Below, piece after piece: positions 16,895 to 29,036 of a DNA stretch of 64,000 nt. The notes beneath the pieces were generated by a model. It did no database searches. It saw only the letters and a list, made by a program, of their open reading frames with translations, and was not told the origin of the DNA. A program made the translations under genes and the position numbers. This DNA comes from Bacteroidales bacterium (lineage in GTDB: Bacteria > Bacteroidota > Bacteroidia > Bacteroidales > UBA1402). Location: NCBI GenBank assembly GCA_021373135.1, contig JAJFTH010000003.1, positions 186,001-250,000 on the forward strand, read 5' to 3'. The number at the start of each line of letters is the position of its first letter. Positions within the stretch are counted from its first letter, which is position 1.

Positions 16895-18817
16895 TTATTT
16901 TTTTAAATATTTTTTCGGGATCTTAACTCCGAAATAATTCATGGCTTTCGTATTCACAATGACCGAAGTTTTGGTGACATACTGAAAAGGAATATCGGCA
17001 GGTGATTGCCCGGAAAAAACTTTTTCAGCCAATTTTGCAGCATCTACGCCGGCATAAAAATAATCGCGCGCTACAACTGCAACCGCTCCGGATTCAATCT
17101 GTTCGGTGACAAATCCAAAATAGGGGATTTTTGAGTCATAAGCTGCTTTTATAATAGATGCACAGGCACTTCCTGTCAGATTGTCCGATATTTGGGTAAA
17201 AGCCTGTATTCCGCGATTGGTTATGGAAAGAGCGGCATCAGCTACCTCCGTTGCGGAATTGGCGGGGACGGCAATGAGCTCTAAGCCTCGATTATGGGCG
17301 GCTTTCCTGAGTCCTTCCACGTATGCCACAGAATTCACTTCACCCGGTGTGTAAATGGTGCCGATGGTTTTAATCTTCGGAATTGTTTCGATGACCAACT
17401 TAACCAGGCCATCGAAATTGCTCATGGTGGAAATTCCGGTAATGGTTGGCAGGTGTTTGGTGAACGATTTTCCCAAACCTGCACGGACAGGGTCTCCAAC
17501 ATTCGAGAAAACAATCGGAATATCAGTGATTCTTTTGGAGAGCATTTGAATGGTCGGGGTGGATGATGCGAAAATCAAGTCCCATTTGTTACTGCCAATG
17601 GTTTGGGCGATACTGTTCAAGGTTGAGATATCGCCTTGCGCATTAAACACTTTCAGGGTGAAATCTTTTCCTTCTGTCATTCCTTGTTTTTTTAGTTCTG
17701 ATCGCACTCCTTTTTCAATATTTTCCGAGTTTGGGCTATCCACATAATGAACAAAGCATAATTTTAGTTTCTTTTTAGGAGCCGCCGATTTTTCACCGGT
17801 CATATATTTATTCGGTATTTTGATGCCGAGAGCCTGCGCAACTGCCTGATTGACGACGATGCTTTCCTCCACATAATTCTCTATCGGAATCTTGGCCGGA
17901 CTTTCACCGTTTAACACCCGGGCTACAAAGGAAGCCGAATATACACCGGTAGCATACCATCCGATGCCTACAGCAGCCAGAGCACCTTGTTTTACATAGT
18001 CACAATCATTTAAAATGAGCGGGACTTTATTGTCGCGACAGACTTTCACGATGCCGCTTATCGCCTGAAGAGCCGTATTGTCGCCCGTCACCCACATGGC
18101 GTCAATATTTCTCATGCACAGGGCCGATGCGGCCTGATATACCTCGGAAGTGTTGACGATCGAATTTTCAAGAAGCTCAATTCCTTTTGTCTTCATATAA
18201 TCGCGTGCTACCTGAACGACTTTTATAGAGTTGGCCTCGGAGGAATTGTAAAGGGTTCCGATGCGTTTGGTTCCGGGAAGAATATCTTTGATGAAATCAA
18301 CTGTTTTTTCAACCGGTGGAAACGAACCAACTCCCGTAATATTCGGCAAATGGTCGGTGAAACTTTTGCCTGCTCCTGCCTCCAGAGGCGTATACGTCAT
18401 GGAAAAGACTATGGGGTGTTTTTTTACGGTAGCCACTGCTGCGGTTATCGCAGGTGTAGACGTGACAAGTATCAGGTCAACATCACGGTTGTCCATACTC
18501 AGGTGAATGGGTTGCAGATTGGCAATTTCTCCGTTGGCGTGTTGAGAAATGACCATCAAATTGCTGTCTTTTACAAATCCCAACTGTTTTAATCCGTCCC
18601 ACAAACCGACGAGTGCGGCATCGAACGTGGCATCAGGCGCAAAATAAGTCAGTCCGATTTTATAAATTCTACCTTTTACGGCTTTCAATCCGACACTTTG
18701 AGCGGGTATGATTTCCTTTTCTGTTTTACCTTTTCTGTTTTCCAAATCAGAAAAAAGCAAAATACCTCCTGCAATAAATAGTGCCAGAATTCCGTTTAAT
18801 ATCTTTCGGATTTTCAT
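16895..18817 (-). CDS. Tandem-duplicated ABC substrate-binding protein (two ABC_sub_bind/DUF534 domains)
   Basis: 640 residues, twice the usual length of about 320. The N-terminal signal/anchor is at about 7-23. Domain 1 spans about 52-345 and domain 2 about 355-640. They align end to end: each has a HLP-ITG segment (TDHLPNITGVG, TKHLPTITGIS), a GTLYN/GTIYT segment, and the closing LGIKIPNKY/FGVKIPKKY. A Lys-rich linker (APKKKLKL) separates them. The family binds Trp/Tyr-like or other small ligands for TrpYZ-type importers. Two sites in one chain could bind two ligands or feed both signalling and transport. No lipobox is evident, so it is probably membrane-anchored. Confidence 0.9.
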   Translation of the reverse strand: MKIRKILNGILALFIAGGILLFSDLENRKGKTEKEIIPAQSVGLKAVKGRIYKIGLTYFAPDATFDAALVGLWDGLKQLGFVKDSNLMVISQHANGEIANLQPIHLSMDNRDVDLILVTSTPAITAAVATVKKHPIVFSMTYTPLEAGAGKSFTDHLPNITGVGSFPPVEKTVDFIKDILPGTKRIGTLYNSSEANSIKVVQVARDYMKTKGIELLENSIVNTSEVYQAASALCMRNIDAMWVTGDNTALQAISGIVKVCRDNKVPLILNDCDYVKQGALAAVGIGWYATGVYSASFVARVLNGESPAKIPIENYVEESIVVNQAVAQALGIKIPNKYMTGEKSAAPKKKLKLCFVHYVDSPNSENIEKGVRSELKKQGMTEGKDFTLKVFNAQGDISTLNSIAQTIGSNKWDLIFASSTPTIQMLSKRITDIPIVFSNVGDPVRAGLGKSFTKHLPTITGISTMSNFDGLVKLVIETIPKIKTIGTIYTPGEVNSVAYVEGLRKAAHNRGLELIAVPANSATEVADAALSITNRGIQAFTQISDNLTGSACASIIKAAYDSKIPYFGFVTEQIESGAVAVVARDYFYAGVDAAKLAEKVFSGQSPADIPFQYVTKTSVIVNTKAMNYFGVKIPKKYLKK

Positions 18818-18885
18818 GTGTGTTTTTCTATAATATTTTGACTATCAGATATAAATATGCTTTATATAAAGCATTGAATTAATAA

Positions 18886-19212
18886 TTATTCGAGTGCTTC
18901 TTTCTGCGTATCGAAAATTTGGAAAATAGTGGAGAAACCGGAGATGTCGAAGATTTCTTTGATGACAGGTTGCATGGAACACAGATGCAGTGTCCCATGC
19001 ATGGCATTCACTTTCTTCAGTGCCGTTAAAAAGATTCTCAGACCCGAACTGCTGATATAGTTCAATCCGCTGCAATTTAAAACAATCTTCTTCTCATCCG
19101 CTTCAAATACTTGACCGATGGCCTGCTCCAATTCATTGAAGTTGTTGGTATCCACTCTGCCGTACAATGTCAGCACCAGAAACTCACCGATTTTTTCTTT
19201 TGTGATGTTCAT
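18886..19212 (-). CDS. Anti-sigma factor antagonist, single STAS domain (RsbV/SpoIIAA-like)
   Basis: 108 residues, a stand-alone STAS domain. The phospho-site motif is YISSSGLRI (52-60), with Ser54 replacing the usual Asp and Ser55 as expected acceptor. It lies one base after the HATPase kinase gene and just downstream of the PP2C phosphatase gene, giving a complete kinase/antagonist/phosphatase set. The family cycles between a phosphorylated inactive and an unphosphorylated kinase-binding form. A 68-base gap follows before the duplicated binding protein gene. Confidence 0.93.
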   Translation of the reverse strand: MNITKEKIGEFLVLTLYGRVDTNNFNELEQAIGQVFEADEKKIVLNCSGLNYISSSGLRIFLTALKKVNAMHGTLHLCSMQPVIKEIFDISGFSTIFQIFDTQKEALE

Positions 19213-19213
19213 C

Positions 19214-19642
19214 TCAAATATTTTTAACTAAGGTTAATCTATTCTGATTGTTTTGCCTGGAATAGCTTACCTGATCCATTATTTTCAAGATCAGGAGTAT
19301 GCCCAAACCACCAATGGGCCGTTCTTCGACAGGCAATGTGATATCGGGTAGCTTCTGGGAAAGAGGGTCGAAAGGAATGCCGTCGTCCACAATTTCAACG
19401 GTAAGAATCTTATTTTCGAGCGCAAGTGATATCTGAATCAGGTGTTTTTGATGATCGTTGAAAGCATAAAAAATCACATTGGAAACGGCTTCCTCCAAGA
19501 CCAGATTGAGATTCATGGTCAGCGGTACGGGCAGTTCCCATTTTTCAGCCAGGTTTTCTATTTTTCCGGCCAAAATAGAAAGTGCTTCTATCTTATTTTC
19601 AATTTCAAAGACTTCCTTCATCTTGGTTTCCATAATAAACAA
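19214..19642 (-). CDS. Serine kinase/anti-sigma factor of the RsbW/SpoIIAB type (HATPase_c)
   Basis: 142 residues from 19642; starts at 19633 or 19621 (MKEVFEIENKIEALS) are also possible, because the first codons overlap the phosphatase gene. GHKL ATPase boxes are visible: the N-box NLVLEEAVSNVIFY (46-59), the G1 box EIVDDGIPFDP and the G2 box GGLGILLI. Such proteins phosphorylate STAS partners and sequester a sigma factor or other target. No sigma gene lies in this operon, so the target is elsewhere or is not a sigma factor. Confidence 0.9.
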   Translation of the reverse strand: MFIMETKMKEVFEIENKIEALSILAGKIENLAEKWELPVPLTMNLNLVLEEAVSNVIFYAFNDHQKHLIQISLALENKILTVEIVDDGIPFDPLSQKLPDITLPVEERPIGGLGILLILKIMDQVSYSRQNNQNRLTLVKNI

Positions 19643-21551
19643 TGCTCAACATGGTTAAATCATCGGATTGTTGGTTGCCTTTGACATGCAGGGCTATATC
19701 TTCTGCCACAAAGCGAATCAAATCTTTTGTTTGGGATTCGAAATGAGCACGAACGCAATCTATCAGTTTCTGATCGGAATAAAGTTTCTCCTCCGCATCC
19801 TCTGCTTCTGTAACGCCATCGGTGTATAAAAAGAGCTTGTCGTTTTTGGAAAGGTTGAGTACTTTCTCGCCATAGTCGAAATCATCAAATAGCCCGACAG
19901 GAATATCTTTCGTCAATTCGAAAAATTCGGTTGTTCCATCCGGATGCACCAGCAGCGGCGGATTGTGACCTGCATTGGAATACTTCAATATACCGCTTTC
20001 CACATCAAGGATTCCCAGGAAGAAAGTCACAAACATGTTGGATTCGTTTCCTGCAGAGAGTGATTTGTTCAATGCATTGACGATAACCGCAGTCGATAGC
20101 TGATTTGGTGCCAAGGATCGTAAGAGTGTCCTGGTTACAGCCATAAAAAGCGATGCAGGCACACCTTTTCCGGATACGTCACCGATGGCAAAACAAAGGT
20201 GTTTGTCATCGATTAAAAAGAAATCATAGAGATCACCACCCACTTCTTTGGCCGGCTGCAAGGTTGCAAAAAGGTCAATTTCGGACAAATTGGGGAAAGG
20301 AGGAAAAATCTTCGGAATCATCCCCATCTGAATTTCACGGGCTATTCTCAATTCGCTCTCAATTTTTTCTTTGGCCGATGTGGTCGATTTCAGATGCTCG
20401 ATGTAGGTCGAAAGGTCTTTCTGCATGTGTTCAAACGAGTCGTGCAGGTGTTTCATCTCGTCTTTCGACTTGATATCCGGTAGTTTGTTGTTGAAGTTTC
20501 CGTTGGCAACTTCACGGGCAGATTTGGCAAAAATCTCAAGTGGTGAAATTTGTCTGGAAACAATCCTGGAAACAATAAATGTGAGCAAAATCAAACCAAT
20601 GACCACTAAAAAGATTAAAGCGACCGTGATTTTCCGAAGCGGTAAAAACATTTCCGATTTTGGGAAAACAACGGCCAGGGTCCAGTTGCTGGATGGTAGT
20701 GGGGTATAATACAGCACGCGCTCCACCCCGTTCAACGTGCTTGACACAAATCCAGTCTTGCCTTTTTGCATTTCGCGACCTATGGTTCGCAGTTCCGGAT
20801 TGTTCATTTCCGAAGCATAGCTGAAAATGGTCTGATTCATCATCAACTCTTTTTTTGGATGAGTCACAAAAGTGCCATTTCGGGAAAGAACCGAGGCATA
20901 GCCTGTTTCCAGAATCTTGACCGATGAAACAATATCGGTCAGCCAATCGAGTGCTACATCAATGGTGATGACTCCGGCAAAAGACTTTTCCTTGCCGTGC
21001 ATGCTGTAAAAAGGCATTGAGAAGGTCGTGATCAGGGTATTGGCACCGCCGGTGTCGAAATATGGCTCACTCCAGTATGGCTTTTGAATACTTGCGGGAA
21101 TCTGATACCAATCCATTACAAAATACTCATATTCAGTACTTCCAAGTTGAAAGGTTTTGATATTTCCTTTTTCACGACAGGAATAAGGTGCAAAATATCT
21201 TCCCTTTTCCTTAAAAAAAAAGGATTCATAAGCAATGGCACAACCTACTATTTCGGGATTGTTTCCAATAATTTTTCTGGTTATTCCAAAAATAGAATCG
21301 CTGCTCAGACGCTTATTCTCAATAATCCATTTGTAATTGTTCGCAATCTTTGTGATTGGAGAGAGTATGAGTTCGGTTTTTAAAACAGTGTTGTTTGTGA
21401 TGGCTTCCGCATAGTTATATGTCATCTCCTTCATTTGCTTCTTTGAGAAGAAGTAGAAAACCGACAGGGAAATGATAAAAAGGAACAAACAAAAAGTCAG
21501 AACGTAAAATACGATTCGAGACGCAAGAGACCTGTTGATATTAAGCTTCAT
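19605..21551 (-). CDS. Membrane sensor PP2C phosphatase (RsbU/SpoIIE type) with Cache and HAMP domains
   Basis: 648 residues. The first membrane segment is at about 12-35. A periplasmic Cache-type sensor spans about 36-300 and contains the typical YWSEPYFD (159-166). A second membrane segment is at about 308-330, then a HAMP at about 325-380, a coiled linker, and a SpoIIE/PP2C domain at about 420-640. Metal-binding motifs are present: GGDLYD (438-443), GDVSGKG (457-463), NAGHNPP and FLYTDGVTEA. It should dephosphorylate the STAS proteins when its Cache domain binds a ligand. It is 12 bases downstream of an NMT1-like binding protein, which may deliver that ligand. Confidence 0.95.
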   Translation of the reverse strand: MKLNINRSLASRIVFYVLTFCLFLFIISLSVFYFFSKKQMKEMTYNYAEAITNNTVLKTELILSPITKIANNYKWIIENKRLSSDSIFGITRKIIGNNPEIVGCAIAYESFFFKEKGRYFAPYSCREKGNIKTFQLGSTEYEYFVMDWYQIPASIQKPYWSEPYFDTGGANTLITTFSMPFYSMHGKEKSFAGVITIDVALDWLTDIVSSVKILETGYASVLSRNGTFVTHPKKELMMNQTIFSYASEMNNPELRTIGREMQKGKTGFVSSTLNGVERVLYYTPLPSSNWTLAVVFPKSEMFLPLRKITVALIFLVVIGLILLTFIVSRIVSRQISPLEIFAKSAREVANGNFNNKLPDIKSKDEMKHLHDSFEHMQKDLSTYIEHLKSTTSAKEKIESELRIAREIQMGMIPKIFPPFPNLSEIDLFATLQPAKEVGGDLYDFFLIDDKHLCFAIGDVSGKGVPASLFMAVTRTLLRSLAPNQLSTAVIVNALNKSLSAGNESNMFVTFFLGILDVESGILKYSNAGHNPPLLVHPDGTTEFFELTKDIPVGLFDDFDYGEKVLNLSKNDKLFLYTDGVTEAEDAEEKLYSDQKLIDCVRAHFESQTKDLIRFVAEDIALHVKGNQQSDDLTMLSIVYYGNQDEGSL

Positions 21552-21563
21552 AACAAAAACAAT

Positions 21564-22526
21564 TTACAGGACAGGTTTGTAAAACGCGTTAAAATCAGTT
21601 TTCTTTTTTACATAGCCTCCATCAATTAGAATGCTTTGGGTTTTGTGAAAATCAGATTCGGAAAGTTGGCCTTTTTTTACATTTTTAGTGCCGGGTTCAA
21701 TCAGGCCCAGCATTTTGTCCAACATCCAGGACTGATGTGCCTTGTTGGTAGCGACATGTGCTTTCTTCATTTCTTCCAATACGATATCCAGGGTTTCGGA
21801 GCGATTGTTCTTTGCATATTCCCAACCTTTCAAGGTGGCTCGTACAAATTTTTTCAGGTCTTCCTTACGCAGAGTCAACGTTTTATGGAGACAATAGAGC
21901 CCGTCTTCAGGAATATTATAGCCATAATCGGAAAAGAAGAATGTATTCAACTCCTCTTTGTTGATGCCTGAATTGATAATCTGGTCGTATTCGTTGTACC
22001 ACATGACGGTCATGGCATCAATACCTCCCACCATAAACATATTGACCGATGAAAGAATGGGTACCCATGTGACATGGTAGCCATTGGAGCGGATCAGGTC
22101 TTTTCCGACTTCGTCGAAACCACTTTTCCAGACTCCGATTTTTTTTCCGTTAAGATCGGCAAGACTTTTGATGTTTTTTTCTTTTTTGGACACAAAAAGC
22201 AAGGCTGAATTTTGTGAGAGTTGTGCAATATTCACTAAATCCAGACCTTCACTTCTGGCCGAAATAGCCGAAATCAGAAAAGAGGAGATGATGTCGGACT
22301 CCCCTTTCGCAAGCCGTACGACAGCATTGATCGAGACAGATGGATGAATGATCCTGACATCAAGGCCTTCTGCATGGTAAAAGCCTTTTTTTTCTGCTAC
22401 ATAATAGCCTGCAAATTGTGCCTGGGGTAGCCAATGCGGACTAAAGGTTATTTTTGGCAAGTCTTGTCCGGGACAGTTGAAAGCAAGCAGATAAAACAAA
22501 ACCAAAACGGACAAATGGTGTTTCAT
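21564..22526 (-). CDS. NMT1/THI5-like periplasmic substrate-binding protein
   Basis: 320 residues with a signal peptide (1-20, ending NCPGQ). The family hallmark is LPQAQFAGYYVAEKKGFYHAE (about 33-53), as in ThiY/NMT1 pyrimidine-precursor and nitrate/taurine-type binding proteins. ADLNGKKIGVW (about 122-132) is the usual interdomain segment. It leads the operon and is directly followed by the Cache-HAMP-PP2C phosphatase. No matching SsuC/ThiX-type permease is in the window, so it may act mainly as a sensor subunit. The upstream gap (22527-22670) holds no strong promoter or terminator that I can defend. Confidence 0.88.
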   Translation of the reverse strand: MKHHLSVLVLFYLLAFNCPGQDLPKITFSPHWLPQAQFAGYYVAEKKGFYHAEGLDVRIIHPSVSINAVVRLAKGESDIISSFLISAISARSEGLDLVNIAQLSQNSALLFVSKKEKNIKSLADLNGKKIGVWKSGFDEVGKDLIRSNGYHVTWVPILSSVNMFMVGGIDAMTVMWYNEYDQIINSGINKEELNTFFFSDYGYNIPEDGLYCLHKTLTLRKEDLKKFVRATLKGWEYAKNNRSETLDIVLEEMKKAHVATNKAHQSWMLDKMLGLIEPGTKNVKKGQLSESDFHKTQSILIDGGYVKKKTDFNAFYKPVL

Positions 22527-22670: not shown

Positions 22671-23810
22671 CTATATCACCCCTTTGGTTGACGGTAATTC
22701 GTATTTGTAGATGTCCCTTTTGATCGCCATTTTGATGGATTTGGCGAAAGCCTTAAAGATTCCTTCAATTTTGTGGTGCTCATTTTCTCCTTCCGCTTTG
22801 ATGTTCAGATTCATTTTGGCCGCATCACTCAACGATTTGAAGAAGTGCAGGAACATTTCTGTCGGGACGTCCCCCACCCTTTCGCGTTTAAATTCAGCAT
22901 CCCAGACCAGCCAGGATCGTCCGCCGAAATCCAGGGCGACACTGCACAGGCAGTCATCCATCGGTAAACAGAACCCGTAACGTTCGATGCCCCGCTTGTC
23001 ACCCAGTGCCTTGAGCAAAGCCTCTCCCAGCGCGATGGCCGTATCTTCCACCGTGTGGTGTTCATCCACATTCAGATCGCCTTTGGTTTGTATCGTCAAG
23101 TCAATACCGGCATGTTTACCGATTTGGTCCAGCATGTGGTTGAAGAATCCCAAACCTGTTTCAATATTGGTCTTTCCGTTACCGTCGAGGTTTATCTCTA
23201 CATAGATGTCCGTCTCATGCGTTTTACGGGTTACCACAGCCCTTCTTTCGCCGGCAAAGAGAAAAGCGGTGATGTCGTCCCATTTGCCGGTAATCAAGGC
23301 GCAAACGCCTTCCAAACCGGCCGACTTGAGCTTTTCTGACAAATGATCCGAAGGTTCCTGAAGCAAAATGGCTTTACATCCCAGATTTTTAGACATCTGG
23401 ACATCTGTTTGTCGATCTCCGATCACAAAAGAAGCGGATAAATCGTATTCATCGGTCAGATATTCCTGAAGCATACCCAGTCGCGGCTTTCGTGTAGGGG
23501 CATTATCTGCAGGCATGGAGTGGTCAATATGTATGGCATCAAAAACAATACCTTCATTTTCAAAAGCTTTCAGTATTTTCTTTTGTGCCGGCCAAAAGGT
23601 CTCTTCAGGAAAAGAGCTGGTACCCATACCGTCCTGGTTTGACACCATGACAAACTTAAAATCAAGTTTTTCGCGAATAAAATGCAGGTTGCGGAAAACA
23701 TGCGGGTAAAACTCGAGTTTTTCAAGGCTATCCAGTTGATAATTAACGGGAGGTTCAATCACCATGGTTCCATCTCTATCGATAAAAAGTACGCGTTTTT
23801 TGGTATTCAT
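22671..23810 (-). CDS. hisB: Bifunctional histidinol-phosphatase / imidazoleglycerol-phosphate dehydratase
   Basis: 379 residues. The N-terminal HAD phosphatase (1-165) has the DRDGT motif with Asp11 and Asp13. The C-terminal IGPD domain (about 190-379) has the manganese-binding [17 protein letters not shown] and [15 protein letters not shown]. It catalyses steps 6 and 8 of histidine synthesis. It is the last gene of the hisGDCB operon and lies nine bases after hisC. Confidence 0.97.
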
Positions 23811-23819
23811 TGCCGTAAA

Positions 23820-24851
23820 TTATTTCATTTTTTGAAGGGTCTCAATCAGCAGGGCGTTTTCTTCGGGAATGCCAACAGTTATGCGCAGACATCCAAGGCA
23901 TAAGGATACATTGTTTCTATTTCTGACAATAATGCCCTGTTCCACTAAGTAGCGATAAGTTGCATTGGCATCATTGACTTTGACCAAAACAAAATTGGCA
24001 TCGGTGGGGTAAACTTTCTGAACCATGGGTAGCTTTTCCAGTTGAGCGATAAGTTTTCCGCGTTGGGAAACCAACATCTCCACCCAATCTTCTTTGCGTT
24101 TGAGCTTTTTAATTTCTTCCCCTACAAAGTATTGGGTCAGCAGATTGATGTTGTACGGATATTTTACCTTGTTGAAAAAACCGATGATTTCAGAACCGGC
24201 AAAGGCCATGCCTAAACGAATGGCAGCCATTCCCCAGGCCTTGGAAAAAGTCTGCAACACAATGAGGTTCGGATATTGGTCAAGTTCCGTCAAAAAGCTT
24301 TTTCTGGAAGAAAAATCGATATAGGCTTCGTCAATGACGACAATGCCGTTAAAGCTTTTGATGACCTTTTTCATGTCGCTGACGTTCAGGTCATTGCCGG
24401 TAGGATTATTCGGTGAGCACATGAAGATGATCTTGGTTCTATTATCCACGGCGGCAAGCACGCTGTCCACGTCTATTGAAAAATCCTCCAACAAGTGCAC
24501 CTTGCGGTATTCCACGTTGTTGATGTCCGCACAAACCTGATACATGCCGTATGTCGGATCAATGGCCACGATGTTGTCCACACCGGGTTCGCAAAAAATG
24601 CGAATGACCAGGTCGATGGGTTCATCGCTTCCGTTTCCGAAAAACAACTTTTCAGAATCCATGTTTTTCAGTTTGGCTACCTTTTCCTTGAGATCATTTT
24701 GCAGTGGATCCGGATAACGGTTGTAAGGAGCATTCAGAGGGTTCTCATTGGCGTCTAAATAGGCAGATGCTTTTCCCTTGAATTCGTCTCTTGCACAAGA
24801 ATATGGTTTGAGGTTAAATATGTTCGGTCTGACTAAATTTTGTAGGTTCAT
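23820..24851 (-). CDS. hisC: Histidinol-phosphate aminotransferase
   Basis: 343 residues, a fold-type I PLP enzyme. The PLP lysine is in TFSKAWGMAAIRLG. Other signatures are SPNNPTGND and VIDEAYIDFS. It converts imidazole-acetol phosphate to histidinol phosphate. It follows hisD after 11 bases. Nothing unusual. Confidence 0.97.
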   Translation of the reverse strand: MNLQNLVRPNIFNLKPYSCARDEFKGKASAYLDANENPLNAPYNRYPDPLQNDLKEKVAKLKNMDSEKLFFGNGSDEPIDLVIRIFCEPGVDNIVAIDPTYGMYQVCADINNVEYRKVHLLEDFSIDVDSVLAAVDNRTKIIFMCSPNNPTGNDLNVSDMKKVIKSFNGIVVIDEAYIDFSSRKSFLTELDQYPNLIVLQTFSKAWGMAAIRLGMAFAGSEIIGFFNKVKYPYNINLLTQYFVGEEIKKLKRKEDWVEMLVSQRGKLIAQLEKLPMVQKVYPTDANFVLVKVNDANATYRYLVEQGIIVRNRNNVSLCLGCLRITVGIPEENALLIETLQKMK

Positions 24852-24862
24852 CGGTGAATGAT

Positions 24863-26143
24863 TTATTTGTTTTTGAGTCGAAGTGACATCGCATTCTTGT
24901 GAGCGAAAAGAGATTCGGTTTCAGCCATGATTTCGACAGCGGAACCAATGTTTTGCAAACCTTCGGGGGTGATTTCCTGAAAGGTGATCTTTTTTCTGAA
25001 ACTGTCCAGATTGACGCCGCTGTATGCCTTTGCACAGCCATTCGTCGGCAAAGTGTGGTTGGTGCCGGAGGCGTAATCGCCGGCACTTTCCGGTGTGAGG
25101 TGTCCCAGAAAAACAGAACCGGCATTGGTGATTCTTTCAGCGACATCCCTGTATTCTTTTGTAGAGATGATGAGGTGCTCAGGTGCATATTCATTGGTGA
25201 GGCTGATGGCCTCCTTCCTATTTTTGACAAGAATGATTTTGCTGTTTGCCAGGGACTTCTCGACAATGTCCTTGCGTGGTAGCTGAGCTGTTTGCTTCTT
25301 GATTTCTTCCATGACTTCGGATATCAGGGCTTCACAGGTGGTGACGAGGATCACCTGACTGTCTACACCGTGTTCTGCCTGCGAAAGCAAATCGGAGGCT
25401 ACAAATGCAGGATTCGCGGTTTCGTCGGCAAGCACTTCCACTTCTGAAGGCCCTGCAGGCATGTCTATGGCTACATCGCGAAGACTGACCAGTTGTTTGG
25501 CTGTTGTGACATATTGGTTGCCGGGTCCGAAAATCTTATAGACTTTCGGCACACTTTCCGTACCATAAGCCATGGCACCGATAGCTTGTATGCCACCGAT
25601 TTTGAATACTTGGCTCACACCTGAAATTTTAGCGGCATACAACACGGCAGGATTGATTTTTCCTTCCTTGTTGGGTGGTGTACAAAGCACGATTTCCCTG
25701 CAACCGGCAATCTGAGCCGGAATGGCCAGCATCAATACGGTAGAGAACAATGGAGCTGTTCCACCCGGGATGTATAATCCGACTTTTTCTATGGCGACAG
25801 CCTTCTGCCAGCAAGTGACGCCTGGTACGGTTTCCACTTTGGGCAAAGCGGTATTTTGTGCAGTATGGAATGCGGTGATATTCTGCTTTGCAAGATTAAT
25901 GGCTTGCTTTAAGTTTTCTGATACAAGTGATTCTGATTCAGTGAATTCATTTTCTGAAACAGATAGTTTTTTCAGGTCAACATGATCAAATTTCAATTCG
26001 TTTTCTTTGACAGCCTGATCTCCCCCGTTTTTGATGGAGCGCAAGACACCACTAACGATTTCGTTCAATTGTGTCGTATCATAAACCGGTCTTGACAGAA
26101 GCGCAGGCCATTCACTTTCAGATGGATATTTGATAATTTTCAT
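24863..26143 (-). CDS. hisD: Histidinol dehydrogenase
   Basis: 426 residues from the ATG at 26143 (MKIIKYPSESEWPALLSRPV), matching the usual 425-430. The frame stays open 31 codons further to 26236, but that stretch is the palindromic repeat in the hisG-hisD gap and is not conserved protein. Signatures are CTPPNKEGKINPAVLYAAKI, AGPSEVEVLADE and the zinc-binding DLLSQAEHG. It oxidises histidinol to histidine in two NAD-dependent steps. Confidence 0.96.
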   Translation of the reverse strand: MKIIKYPSESEWPALLSRPVYDTTQLNEIVSGVLRSIKNGGDQAVKENELKFDHVDLKKLSVSENEFTESESLVSENLKQAINLAKQNITAFHTAQNTALPKVETVPGVTCWQKAVAIEKVGLYIPGGTAPLFSTVLMLAIPAQIAGCREIVLCTPPNKEGKINPAVLYAAKISGVSQVFKIGGIQAIGAMAYGTESVPKVYKIFGPGNQYVTTAKQLVSLRDVAIDMPAGPSEVEVLADETANPAFVASDLLSQAEHGVDSQVILVTTCEALISEVMEEIKKQTAQLPRKDIVEKSLANSKIILVKNRKEAISLTNEYAPEHLIISTKEYRDVAERITNAGSVFLGHLTPESAGDYASGTNHTLPTNGCAKAYSGVNLDSFRKKITFQEITPEGLQNIGSAVEIMAETESLFAHKNAMSLRLKNK

Positions 26144-26177
26144 CTCATTATTTTTTATTTTAACATTTAGGAATTCA

Positions 26178-26236
26178 ATGAAACTCGCCAAATAATTGTT
26201 CACTTGTGTGAGCGATAGATCATGGGCTCGTTTCAT
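26178..26236 (-). repeat. Palindromic dispersed repeat, copy C (hisG-hisD gap)
   Basis: 59 bp. On the minus strand it reads ATGAAAC-GA-GCC at one end and GGC-GA-GTTTCAT at the other, with ten perfect pairs flanking a GA/GA internal mismatch. It has a small inner hairpin (TCAC/GTGA). It lies in the same orientation as the his transcript. The outer stem design matches copies A and B. Confidence 0.8.
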
Positions 26237-26248
26237 AATATGAAGTCT

Positions 26249-27100
26249 CTATATGATCATTTTTTCGATGGGCAGAACAAGTATGCCTTCGGCACCCAAA
26301 GTCTTTAATTTGCCGATTACTTCCCAAAACCTTTTTTCTTCCAACACTGTATGCAACGAGCTCCAGCCTTCTTTGGCCAGCGGCATCACTGTCGGACTTC
26401 TCATGCCCGGTATTTCGTTGACGATGGCCTCGATCTTGTCATTGGGTACATTCATCAGCACATATTTCTTATTTTCGGCATATTGGACAGCCTGAATGCG
26501 GAACATCAATTCATCCAGAATCGTCTGCTTTTCTTCTGTCAAGGCTGTATGGCCTATCAGGAGTGCTTCCGATTGCATTACTACTTCCACTTCCTTCAGC
26601 TGGTTGCTCACCAAAGTGCTGCCCGAACTCACGATATCGAAGATACAATCTGCCAAGCCGATGCCAGGAGCGATTTCCACAGAACCGGTAATGACATGTA
26701 TTTCAGCCTTGACGCCTTTTGACTTGAGAAAATCGCCTAAAATAACTGGATATGAAGTGGCAATGGTCTTACCGTTTAGCCATTCTATTCCAATATAATC
26801 AATTGATTTTGGAATAGCGATGGAAAGCCGGCATTTGCTGAATCCCAATCGTTTGATGATATTGGCATTTTCTTTTTTTTCACAAAACTCATTTTCTCCG
26901 ACAATCCCAACATCTGCAATACCGGATGCAACCGATTGAGGTATGTCATCATCCCTTAAGAACAAGATTTCTACCGGAAAATTCTTGGATGGGACCAGAA
27001 GTGTCCGTTTGCCGGGAGCGAGTTTGATGCCAGCTTCCTGGAGCAGCAACATGGTGTCCTCATTGAGACGACCTTTGGATTGTACAGCTATTCTTAGCAT
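26249..27100 (-). CDS. hisG: ATP phosphoribosyltransferase (long form)
   Basis: 283 residues, the long form with a C-terminal regulatory ACT-like domain (about 210-283) that usually mediates histidine feedback. The start MLRIAVQSKGRLNEDTMLLL is typical. GIADVGIVGENE and VSSGSTLVSNQLKEVE are core catalytic signatures. It is the first enzyme of histidine synthesis and the first gene of the operon. The message is also controlled by an attenuator between 27121 and 27242. Confidence 0.97.
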   Translation of the reverse strand: MLRIAVQSKGRLNEDTMLLLQEAGIKLAPGKRTLLVPSKNFPVEILFLRDDDIPQSVASGIADVGIVGENEFCEKKENANIIKRLGFSKCRLSIAIPKSIDYIGIEWLNGKTIATSYPVILGDFLKSKGVKAEIHVITGSVEIAPGIGLADCIFDIVSSGSTLVSNQLKEVEVVMQSEALLIGHTALTEEKQTILDELMFRIQAVQYAENKKYVLMNVPNDKIEAIVNEIPGMRSPTVMPLAKEGWSSLHTVLEEKRFWEVIGKLKTLGAEGILVLPIEKMII

Positions 27101-27116
27101 AATGATTGAATTTTTT

Positions 27117-27155
27117 GAATAAAAAAGGCTTACCTGATGACGGTAAGCCTTTTGA
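27117..27155 (-). terminator. his operon attenuator terminator
   Basis: A 12-bp perfect stem (27123-27134 with 27142-27153, AAAAGGCTTACC/GGTAAGCCTTTT), loop of seven, then a T-run on the minus strand. It ends only about 20 bases before the hisG ATG and after a His-containing leader peptide, so it is placed to abort the his transcript. Confidence 0.85.
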
Positions 27156-27191
27156 ATTTTATTTGTTACACTATAAGTTCAGCCAACCGTA

Positions 27192-27242
27192 TCAACGTTC
27201 AGTATAATGGTGGTAGCCTAAATGTAAAGTGTTTACTTGCAT
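27192..27242 (-). CDS. hisL: his leader peptide
   Basis: A 16-residue reading frame, MQVNTLHLGYHHYTER, stop TGA. Three of its 16 codons are His (CAT, then the adjacent CAC CAT). It lies 12-20 bases behind a good promoter box and about 40 bases before a perfect terminator that precedes hisG. This is the layout of a translation-coupled histidine attenuator. The His run is much shorter than the seven of enteric bacteria. Confidence 0.7.
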   Translation of the reverse strand: MQVNTLHLGYHHYTER

Positions 27243-27260
27243 ATCTGTTGGAAATATGTC

Positions 27261-27292
27261 GCAAAAATAAATATTTATTCCGTATTTCACAA
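27261..27292 (-). promoter_or_regulatory. Promoter of the his operon
   Basis: On the minus strand the -7 box is TATTTTTG (27268-27261 within gcaaaaata), and TTG of a -33 element lies at 27292-27290, about 20 bases upstream. Both fit the Bacteroidota pattern. It places the start of transcription just before the leader peptide. Confidence 0.6.
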
Positions 27293-27425: not shown

Positions 27426-29036
27426 ATGATTGAGACTCCTTTAAATACGTTACAGTCGATTTTAGAAAACAGCGTGAACCTTTATGGCAATAAAATCGCA
27501 TACACGTATGGTTCAGCCTGCACAATCACCTACAACATGTTGGGTGAAAAGTCTTCAAAATTACGATTTTTTTTATCAGAACATGGCATCCGTCAATTTG
27601 ATAAAGTCGTTCTAAGCGGGGAAAATATGCCTCACTGGGGGGTCTCCTATTTTGGAATAGCATCGATGGGGGCAATTATTGTCCCGGTTTTGGTCGATTT
27701 TTCACCAGATGAAGTTTCTACAGTCATCACCCATTCTGACGCAAAAGCTTTAATTCTTTCAAATAAAGTTTATCATAAAATCGGTTCAAAAATAAAATTC
27801 GATGGATTGATCATTATCATGGATGATTTTCATTCCGTATCTACCGGAGAAATGATTGATGATTATTGCCTTCAACATGAAGAAACATTTAAGGAATATA
27901 CTCCCAACAGGGTAAAAGAGAGTGATTTGTCCAATATAATTTACACCTCCGGTACAACAGGCCGTTCCAAGGGAGTTATGCTGACCAATGATAATATTGT
28001 TTGGGATGCACAGATGTGTACCACCCTATATCCTGTCACCAGCGCAGATGTTTATTTATCGGTATTGCCACTGGCGCATACCTATGAATGCACCCTCGGA
28101 CTGGTATTGGGTACCATGCAGGGGGCAACGACACATTATATCGACAAAGCACCGACAGCAAATGTATTGATGCCTTTATTAAAAGAAATCAGGCCGACAA
28201 TGATGTTGACAGTGCCGTTGATTATTGAGAAAATGTTTAAAGTAGGTGTAAAACCTAAATTGACGAAAAATCCTTTCATGCGTTTTCTGTATAATATTCG
28301 TCCGTTCCAGATTATTCTTCATCGTGCTGCCGGTAAGAAGCTATATAGGACTTTTGGCGGCAAATTACAATTCTTCGGTATTGGTGGTGCCGCTGTCAAC
28401 AATGAAGTGGAACGGTTTTTGAGAGATGCCAAATTCCCCTATTCCGTTGGATACGGGCTTACTGAAACATCGCCAATGCTTTTCGGCTCTCCCGTTGAAC
28501 ATACCATTTTCCGTTCCAATGGACCTGCCATGAAAGGCATAGAGACCAAACTAATCAATGTCAATCCGCAATCTGGTGAAGGTGAATTAGTCGTGCGTGG
28601 CCGAAATGTCATGCAAGGTTATTACAAGGATCCCGAGAAAACAGCTGAAGTTTTGAGCCCTGACGGATGGTTATGTACGGGAGATCTTGCGATCCTTGAT
28701 AAAAAAGGGAACATTTACCTCAAAGGACGCAGCAAAAATATGATTCTCGGATCGAGTGGTGAGAATATTTACCCTGAAGAAATAGAGGCCATTATCAATG
28801 AGATGGATGGAGTGGTCGAATCTGTTGTTTACGAAAACAAAGGGAAACTGGTAGCCAGGGTTTATCTGAATCCGGAAGAATTTTCAAAACGTTATCAAGA
28901 ACTGAAAGTTTCAGCTCATAATTATCAGGAAGAGCTGAAGAAAAAAAATGGAATTATATCTGAAAGAGTTGAAAGATCGCGTGAATCAGACTGTAAGCAA
29001 GCATTCACAGTTATCGGACGTACATTTGCAGGATGA
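27426..29036 (+). CDS. Long-chain acyl-CoA synthetase (AMP-forming), C-terminus frameshifted
   Basis: 536 residues as read. The P-loop-like IIYTSGTTGRSKGVMLTNDN (about 174-193), GYGLTETSPM and DGWLCTGDLAILDKKGNIYLKGRSKNMI identify an AMP-forming acyl-CoA ligase that activates fatty acids. After YQEELKKK the frame runs into unrelated residues (NGIISERVERSRESD...). The proper C-terminus, including FEKTATMKIKRFL, is in the +1 frame at 28948-29136. The break is exactly at an A8 run (28941-28948); one A fewer restores a 569-residue protein. It may be a real mutation, transcriptional slippage or a sequencing error. The lost part carries end-of-domain residues needed for a normal C-terminal lid. Confidence 0.9.
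   Translation: MIETPLNTLQSILENSVNLYGNKIAYTYGSACTITYNMLGEKSSKLRFFLSEHGIRQFDKVVLSGENMPHWGVSYFGIASMGAIIVPVLVDFSPDEVSTVITHSDAKALILSNKVYHKIGSKIKFDGLIIIMDDFHSVSTGEMIDDYCLQHEETFKEYTPNRVKESDLSNIIYTSGTTGRSKGVMLTNDNIVWDAQMCTTLYPVTSADVYLSVLPLAHTYECTLGLVLGTMQGATTHYIDKAPTANVLMPLLKEIRPTMMLTVPLIIEKMFKVGVKPKLTKNPFMRFLYNIRPFQIILHRAAGKKLYRTFGGKLQFFGIGGAAVNNEVERFLRDAKFPYSVGYGLTETSPMLFGSPVEHTIFRSNGPAMKGIETKLINVNPQSGEGELVVRGRNVMQGYYKDPEKTAEVLSPDGWLCTGDLAILDKKGNIYLKGRSKNMILGSSGENIYPEEIEAIINEMDGVVESVVYENKGKLVARVYLNPEEFSKRYQELKVSAHNYQEELKKKNGIISERVERSRESDCKQAFTVIGRTFAG

Follow-up and report, generated by a model that had tools for sequence, protein, structure and literature searches.

A predicted ribosome-mediated histidine attenuator upstream of hisG in a member of the Bacteroidales

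The closest described counterpart of the element reported here is the enterobacterial his leader, hisL (RF00514), with which it shares a leader peptide containing His codons, alternative antiterminator and terminator hairpins with a T-run, and a location directly before hisG. Leaders of a similar kind have been predicted in Firmicutes, namely His leader attenuators (Ashniev et al., 2022; PMC9413887) and the leaders of hisS/hisZ (Naville and Gautheret, 2010; PMC2965389). They also possess a short leader, a run of His codons, and a terminator and an antiterminator predicted by comparison; they belong to another phylum and are likened to our element by description only. In Firmicutes, his operons are also known to be controlled by riboswitches and T-boxes (PMC9413887). 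For B. thetaiotaomicron, short ORFs resembling leader peptides were mentioned in general terms, the present leader not being among them (PMC7366714). Our literature text searches, the scope of which did not extend to the key earlier attenuator papers on the phylum, retrieved no description of the present leader in Bacteroidota. Amino-acid attenuators were reportedly found by Vitreschak et al. (2004; FEMS Microbiol Lett 234:357) also in some Bacteroidetes/Chlorobi, and this kind of attenuator has therefore probably already been predicted in the phylum. The leader presented here yields a model of amino-acid control in Bacteroidales that is complete and testable. Few cis-regulatory RNAs are annotated in this order, and an alignment and a covariance model are offered for a leader absent from Rfam. 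The mechanism is an ordinary one, and the understanding of attenuation is unchanged by this finding.

The window, i.e. the entire stretch of 64,000 nucleotides analysed, originates from a Bacteroidales genome (G000:C9:186001-250000). The gap between hisG and a divergently oriented AMP-binding gene (27426-29036) is 325 nt long and holds a promoter, a leader gene, and a terminator (Table 1). The preliminary description of this locus had listed, in this order, a promoter, a leader with His codons 7, 11, and 12, a 12-bp terminator with a T-run, and hisG; description and coordinates were correct, and the three codons were confirmed on the sequence. We consider this element to be, with high probability, a ribosome-mediated transcription attenuator of the classical type, predicted to sense charged tRNA-His before hisG. 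The genes hisH, hisA, hisF, and hisIE are not next after hisB in the window. The region 3' of hisB (16895-22526) encodes a periplasmic-binding-like protein, a phosphatase with a sensor region, and an anti-sigma-like ATPase.

Table 1. Features of the predicted attenuator and of the genes that follow it.
Feature	Position in the window	Strand	Basis
Order of parts: promoter, leader gene, segment ACGGTTGGCT, terminator, hisG		minus	
Promoter, Bacteroidota type: TTG (27292-27290), 20-nt spacer, TATTTTTG (27269-27262)	27262..27292	minus	sequence
Leader gene MQVNTLHLGYHHYTER: ATG at 27242, TGA at 27194-27192, 17 codons including stop	27192..27242	minus	sequence; same-length His leaders in nearest relatives
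His codon 7	27224-27222	minus	sequence
His codons 11 and 12 (CAC CAT), proposed stalling site	27207..27212	minus	sequence; His in L002, L003, L090
Segment 2, predicted antiterminator 5' strand ACGGTTGGCT, 2 nt past leader stop codon	27181..27190	minus	conservation, pairing, folding
Segment 3, GGCTTACCGT, spanning two loop bases and a portion of the terminator 5' arm; partner of segment 2 (single U-U mismatch)	27140..27149	minus	
Intrinsic terminator (3:4), AAAAGGCTTACC-GTCATCA-GGTAAGCCTTTT (loop GTCATCA), then T-run to ~27119	27123..27153	minus	12/12 pairs; 96.9% of cells paired, 26 relatives (MAFFT alignment)
hisG, ATP phosphoribosyltransferase, first controlled gene	26249..27100	minus	PF01634 + PF08029
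Operon remainder after hisG	22671..26236	minus	ORFs + Pfam
hisD	24863-26236	minus	ORFs + Pfam
hisC (assigned by position; class I/II aminotransferase)	23820-24851	minus	ORFs + Pfam
Two-domain hisB	22671-23810	minus	ORFs + Pfam

As proposed in the preliminary description, hisG leaders of relatives were compared for His codons and pairing. The set comprised 81 loci (80 fetched relatives and the window), and the 400 nt upstream of each hisG were examined for an ATG-initiated ORF of 8-24 amino acids with at least three His, including an HH pair. Such an ORF was present in 41 of the 81 upstream regions, versus a mean of 1.1 and a maximum of 4 in dinucleotide shuffles of the same regions; for the window taken alone, it arises in 0.75% of shuffles. 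Leaders in the window's own family are 13-16 residues long (MSIRSHFTGHHHCVGR, MTRRYTHFGHHHYAGR, MTVLFHHLLHHHYAGR, MDKLNRYHGHHHHSGR, MIKYDYHHGHHHSRRQ, MNKYPHHHHALQS). The first three of these, aligned 16-residue leaders of the nearest relatives, carry His at positions 11 and 12, matching the HH pair of the window. They also carry His at position 10, which is occupied by Tyr in the window, and this is why the His run of the window looks short and diffuse. Runs of HHHHHH, often present in the 41 leaders, occur in more distant relatives; examples of relatives' leaders are MNYTGSHHHHHHPSE, MKTRVSHHHHHHNGQ, and MKYSIAHHHHHHYPDESIR. The retention of His 11 and 12 in close relatives and the HHHHHH runs in distant ones support the earlier proposal of a histidine attenuator with a 16-residue leader. 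Both His codons are used across all leaders (CAT, 175; CAC, 45), so it is the amino acid, not the DNA, that is kept. This short leader gene, coding for the product amino acid, appears to be of the type characteristic of the attenuator class. About half of the hisG loci (L004, L014-L016, L031-L034, L040, L043, and others) lack a His leader and have either a plain TAnnTTTG promoter before hisG or a hisG located behind another gene. The attenuator has, therefore, often been gained or lost.

Promoters of the Bacteroidota type consist of TTG and TAnnTTTG. The element TATTTTTG matches TAnnTTTG, and the promoter ahead of the leader fits the Bacteroidota consensus, not that of sigma-70. Of 44 leaders, 43 had TAnnTTTG no more than 60 nt 5' of their ATG, as opposed to 6.6% in shuffles, and TTG occurred at the proper distance in 39. 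A sigma-70 promoter match within the leader (27228-27201) was rejected, since the upstream Bacteroidota motif fits and is conserved.

A strong stem followed by a T-run was found in all 45 leaders with complete sequence, at a distance of 14 to 84 nt from hisG. The location of this predicted intrinsic terminator, between the leader and the first gene, is also that characteristic of attenuators. The stem could instead be a constitutive terminator, i.e. a partial terminator or an insulator ahead of hisG, beside which the His-rich ORF would be incidental; AAGGCTTGCC-type short terminators are indeed widespread in the phylum, and many weak matches of our covariance model are plain terminators with no leader. 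However, His-rich leaders before hisG occur 40 times above chance, always with a terminator between leader and hisG, and a conserved segment 2 lies next to the stop codon. This makes a constitutive terminator exceedingly unlikely.

An antiterminator partner had not been obvious in the preliminary description, which allowed for a different mechanism. Comparison points to such a partner just past the stop codon: segment 2, the pairing of which with segment 3 is conserved and covarying. With an antiterminator present, a different mechanism is not needed. This strand is kept in nearly all of the ~45 relatives. In the 45 complete leaders, the terminator was located and pairing was then sought between the stop-codon region and the terminator 5' arm. 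In most leaders, segment 2, with the consensus TCGGTGGGC (ACGGTTGGC in the window's clade), starts a few bases at most from the stop codon; its partner in the terminator is GCTTGCCGA (or GCTTRCCGT), located in the 5' arm and loop. The best-helix score for segments 2 and 3 added up to 878 over 43 loci, versus 601 ± 15 (maximum, 631) for shuffled spacers. As a guard against circularity, both motifs were located by sequence only, and the flanking bases were then tested. The outer pairs, between bases 5' of CGG and loop bases 3' of CCG, were formed in 0.589 of cases versus 0.469 ± 0.039 for permuted partners (5 of 5000 permutations). The terminator can do without these loop bases, and their pairing thus speaks for the antiterminator itself.

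In alignment A1 (MAFFT, 26 relatives), the antiterminator was 86.4% paired, and sliding the partner by 1-3 columns reduced the pairing to 28-50%. Covariation was 0.204 versus 0.150 ± 0.014 (0 of 500 shuffles), with shuffle P values being optimistic because the relatives are kin rather than independent. No covariation was detected within the core of segments 2 and 3, since this core hardly varies; the outer pairs alone are informative. The copy in the window is weak, with three His codons (two of them adjacent) and one antiterminator mismatch, a U-U pair that also occurs in its clade. Taken alone, the antiterminator helix of the window is not significant (P = 0.15 versus shuffled spacers). Given this value and the mismatch, the claim of an antiterminator rests on its conservation in relatives.

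A ribosome shields ~12 nt downstream of its A site. In folds with the A site at His codon 11 or 12, segment 2 was free and the antiterminator formed at ~-13 kcal/mol (RNA up to the terminator loop), lengthened by UGAU:AUCA pairing of the stop-codon region with the loop. When the A site was placed at the stop codon instead, segment 2 was covered, no antiterminator formed, and the full terminator dominated. The geometry of the window therefore fits control by stalling. The predicted antiterminator would exclude the terminator and become exposed on stalling at the regulatory codons, as in attenuators of this class, the case being weak on the window sequence alone.

The promoter motif, the conserved His leader, the terminator, and the conserved and covarying antiterminator are established by sequence and comparison. 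We infer, in addition, the start of transcription, the stalling, the readthrough response, and the tie to histidine. Most likely, this bacterium turns on its histidine-making genes only in histidine shortage, via stalling at the leader His codons. RNA polymerase would start near 27255 and a ribosome would translate the leader. When charged tRNA-His is ample, the ribosome would reach the stop codon and cover segment 2; the terminator 5' arm would then fold with the 3' arm, and transcription would stop ahead of hisG. When histidine is scarce, the ribosome would stall at His codons 11 and 12, leaving segment 2 free to pair with segment 3 before the 3' arm is made. This pairing would block the terminator, and hisGDCB would be transcribed.

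The leader peptide might also exert control at another step, acting on the translation of hisG or through Rho-dependent termination; the hairpin would then be secondary. Control of this kind has precedents in other bacteria, and the hisG start lies merely 22 nt past the stem in the window, so the sequence cannot fully separate termination from access to the hisG start. The strong stem and T-run in each of the complete leaders, at the varying distances from hisG given above, argue against control at another step, as does the alternative pairing, which aims at the terminator and not at the hisG start. We regard it as highly unlikely and retain transcription attenuation.

Segment 2 may also be sequestered by the leader in relatives of the window. 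The mean probability of its pairing with the leader was 0.68 in relatives versus 0.51 for shuffled leaders (Wilcoxon P ~1e-9); in the window, hairpin 1:2 was no better than in shuffled leaders (0.65 versus 0.66). Counted back from the end of the stop codon, most of the partner bases fall at 7-20 nt, in the last leader codons and often at the end of the His run. As judged from folding, relatives' leaders may hide the antiterminator strand, which would complete the classical set of three hairpins. In these relatives, hairpin 1:2 would maintain termination if the leader is untranslated or once the ribosome has gone, and a stalled ribosome would mask the leader partner strand, thereby releasing segment 2. 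The leader peptides (L006-L081) recurrently end with PSE, PNE, PDE, or NGQ. Folding of leaders with PSE/PNE/PDE or NGQ ends pairs their final codons with segment 2, which is probably why these ends recur. This suggests that the peptide end may be conserved for RNA reasons.

The His_leader family RF00514 matched neither the window nor any of 13 relatives, even up to E = 10, and found E. coli hisL at 131.6 bits in a positive control. Rfam searches up to E = 10 yielded sub-threshold, chance-like matches only, the best being Thr_leader with 24.7 bits versus a gathering score of 55. Conversely, the covariance model R1 built here, with which the window element reaches 63.5 bits, fails to find the E. 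coli his leader. The Bacteroidales leader differs from hisL by a shorter leader RNA, a segment 2 that begins from the stop codon, a smaller number of His codons in the window copy, and a Bacteroidota promoter. It would work like hisL, yet the covariance-model test places it outside RF00514. The chance that histidine or tRNA is read directly by a riboswitch or T-box is close to nil: no feature supporting such a device was found, no known T-box or riboswitch model and no Rfam family at gathering score was matched in the window or the 13 relatives, and the His codons are conserved, which is a need of translation only.

The order was searched with R1. Among the 29 top-scoring new loci (L103-L131), some of which coincide with loci used to build the model, 25 were His leaders with a HisG-like ORF behind them, as judged by its N-terminus. 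The other four were two Trp leaders and two loci of neither type. Among 25 further loci from a search of the phylum (L132-L156), eight were His leaders before hisG and four were Trp leaders. One of these His leaders, MKQFLHIHHHHILPDGKRDDAM (L132), belongs to the same phylum but lies outside the class. The same design before hisG also occurs in other families. Weaker R1 matches, from ~37 bits down, are for the most part plain terminators, so the number of His leaders cannot be read from genome tallies of matches.

The second-best R1 match in the window's genome (L096; G000:C5:92979-93068, minus strand) is the Trp leader MSKILCANWWWLFKLQQKW (NWWW) with a terminator before trpB (TIGR00263). Like the His leader, it combines a short leader, here with WWW, a terminator, and a biosynthetic gene downstream, and is matched by the same covariance model; it differs in its Trp codons and terminator sequence. 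From its sequence, this locus is predicted to be a tryptophan attenuator that shares the design of the His leader. WWW leaders before trpB-like or anthranilate-synthase-like ORFs were also recovered with the His-leader model from other Bacteroidota (L121, L123, L137, L142, L150, and L151). We tentatively suggest, at somewhat less than an even chance, that these elements form a Bacteroidota-wide family outside Rfam, not described in detail, of His, Trp, and perhaps other amino-acid attenuators. Their one compact design would comprise regulatory codons, a stop codon, and an antiterminator strand from the stop codon onward; the last codons (PSE, PNE, PDE, or NGQ) would be fixed by pairing with that strand, the peptide end being kept for RNA reasons. 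One further locus, L133, contains near 1501-1581 a short ORF, MIINITIKKHTKMKRVLHGRL, together with an antiterminator-like segment and a terminator before an aspartate-semialdehyde-dehydrogenase-like ORF, and is possibly an attenuator of the Thr/Lys/Met type.
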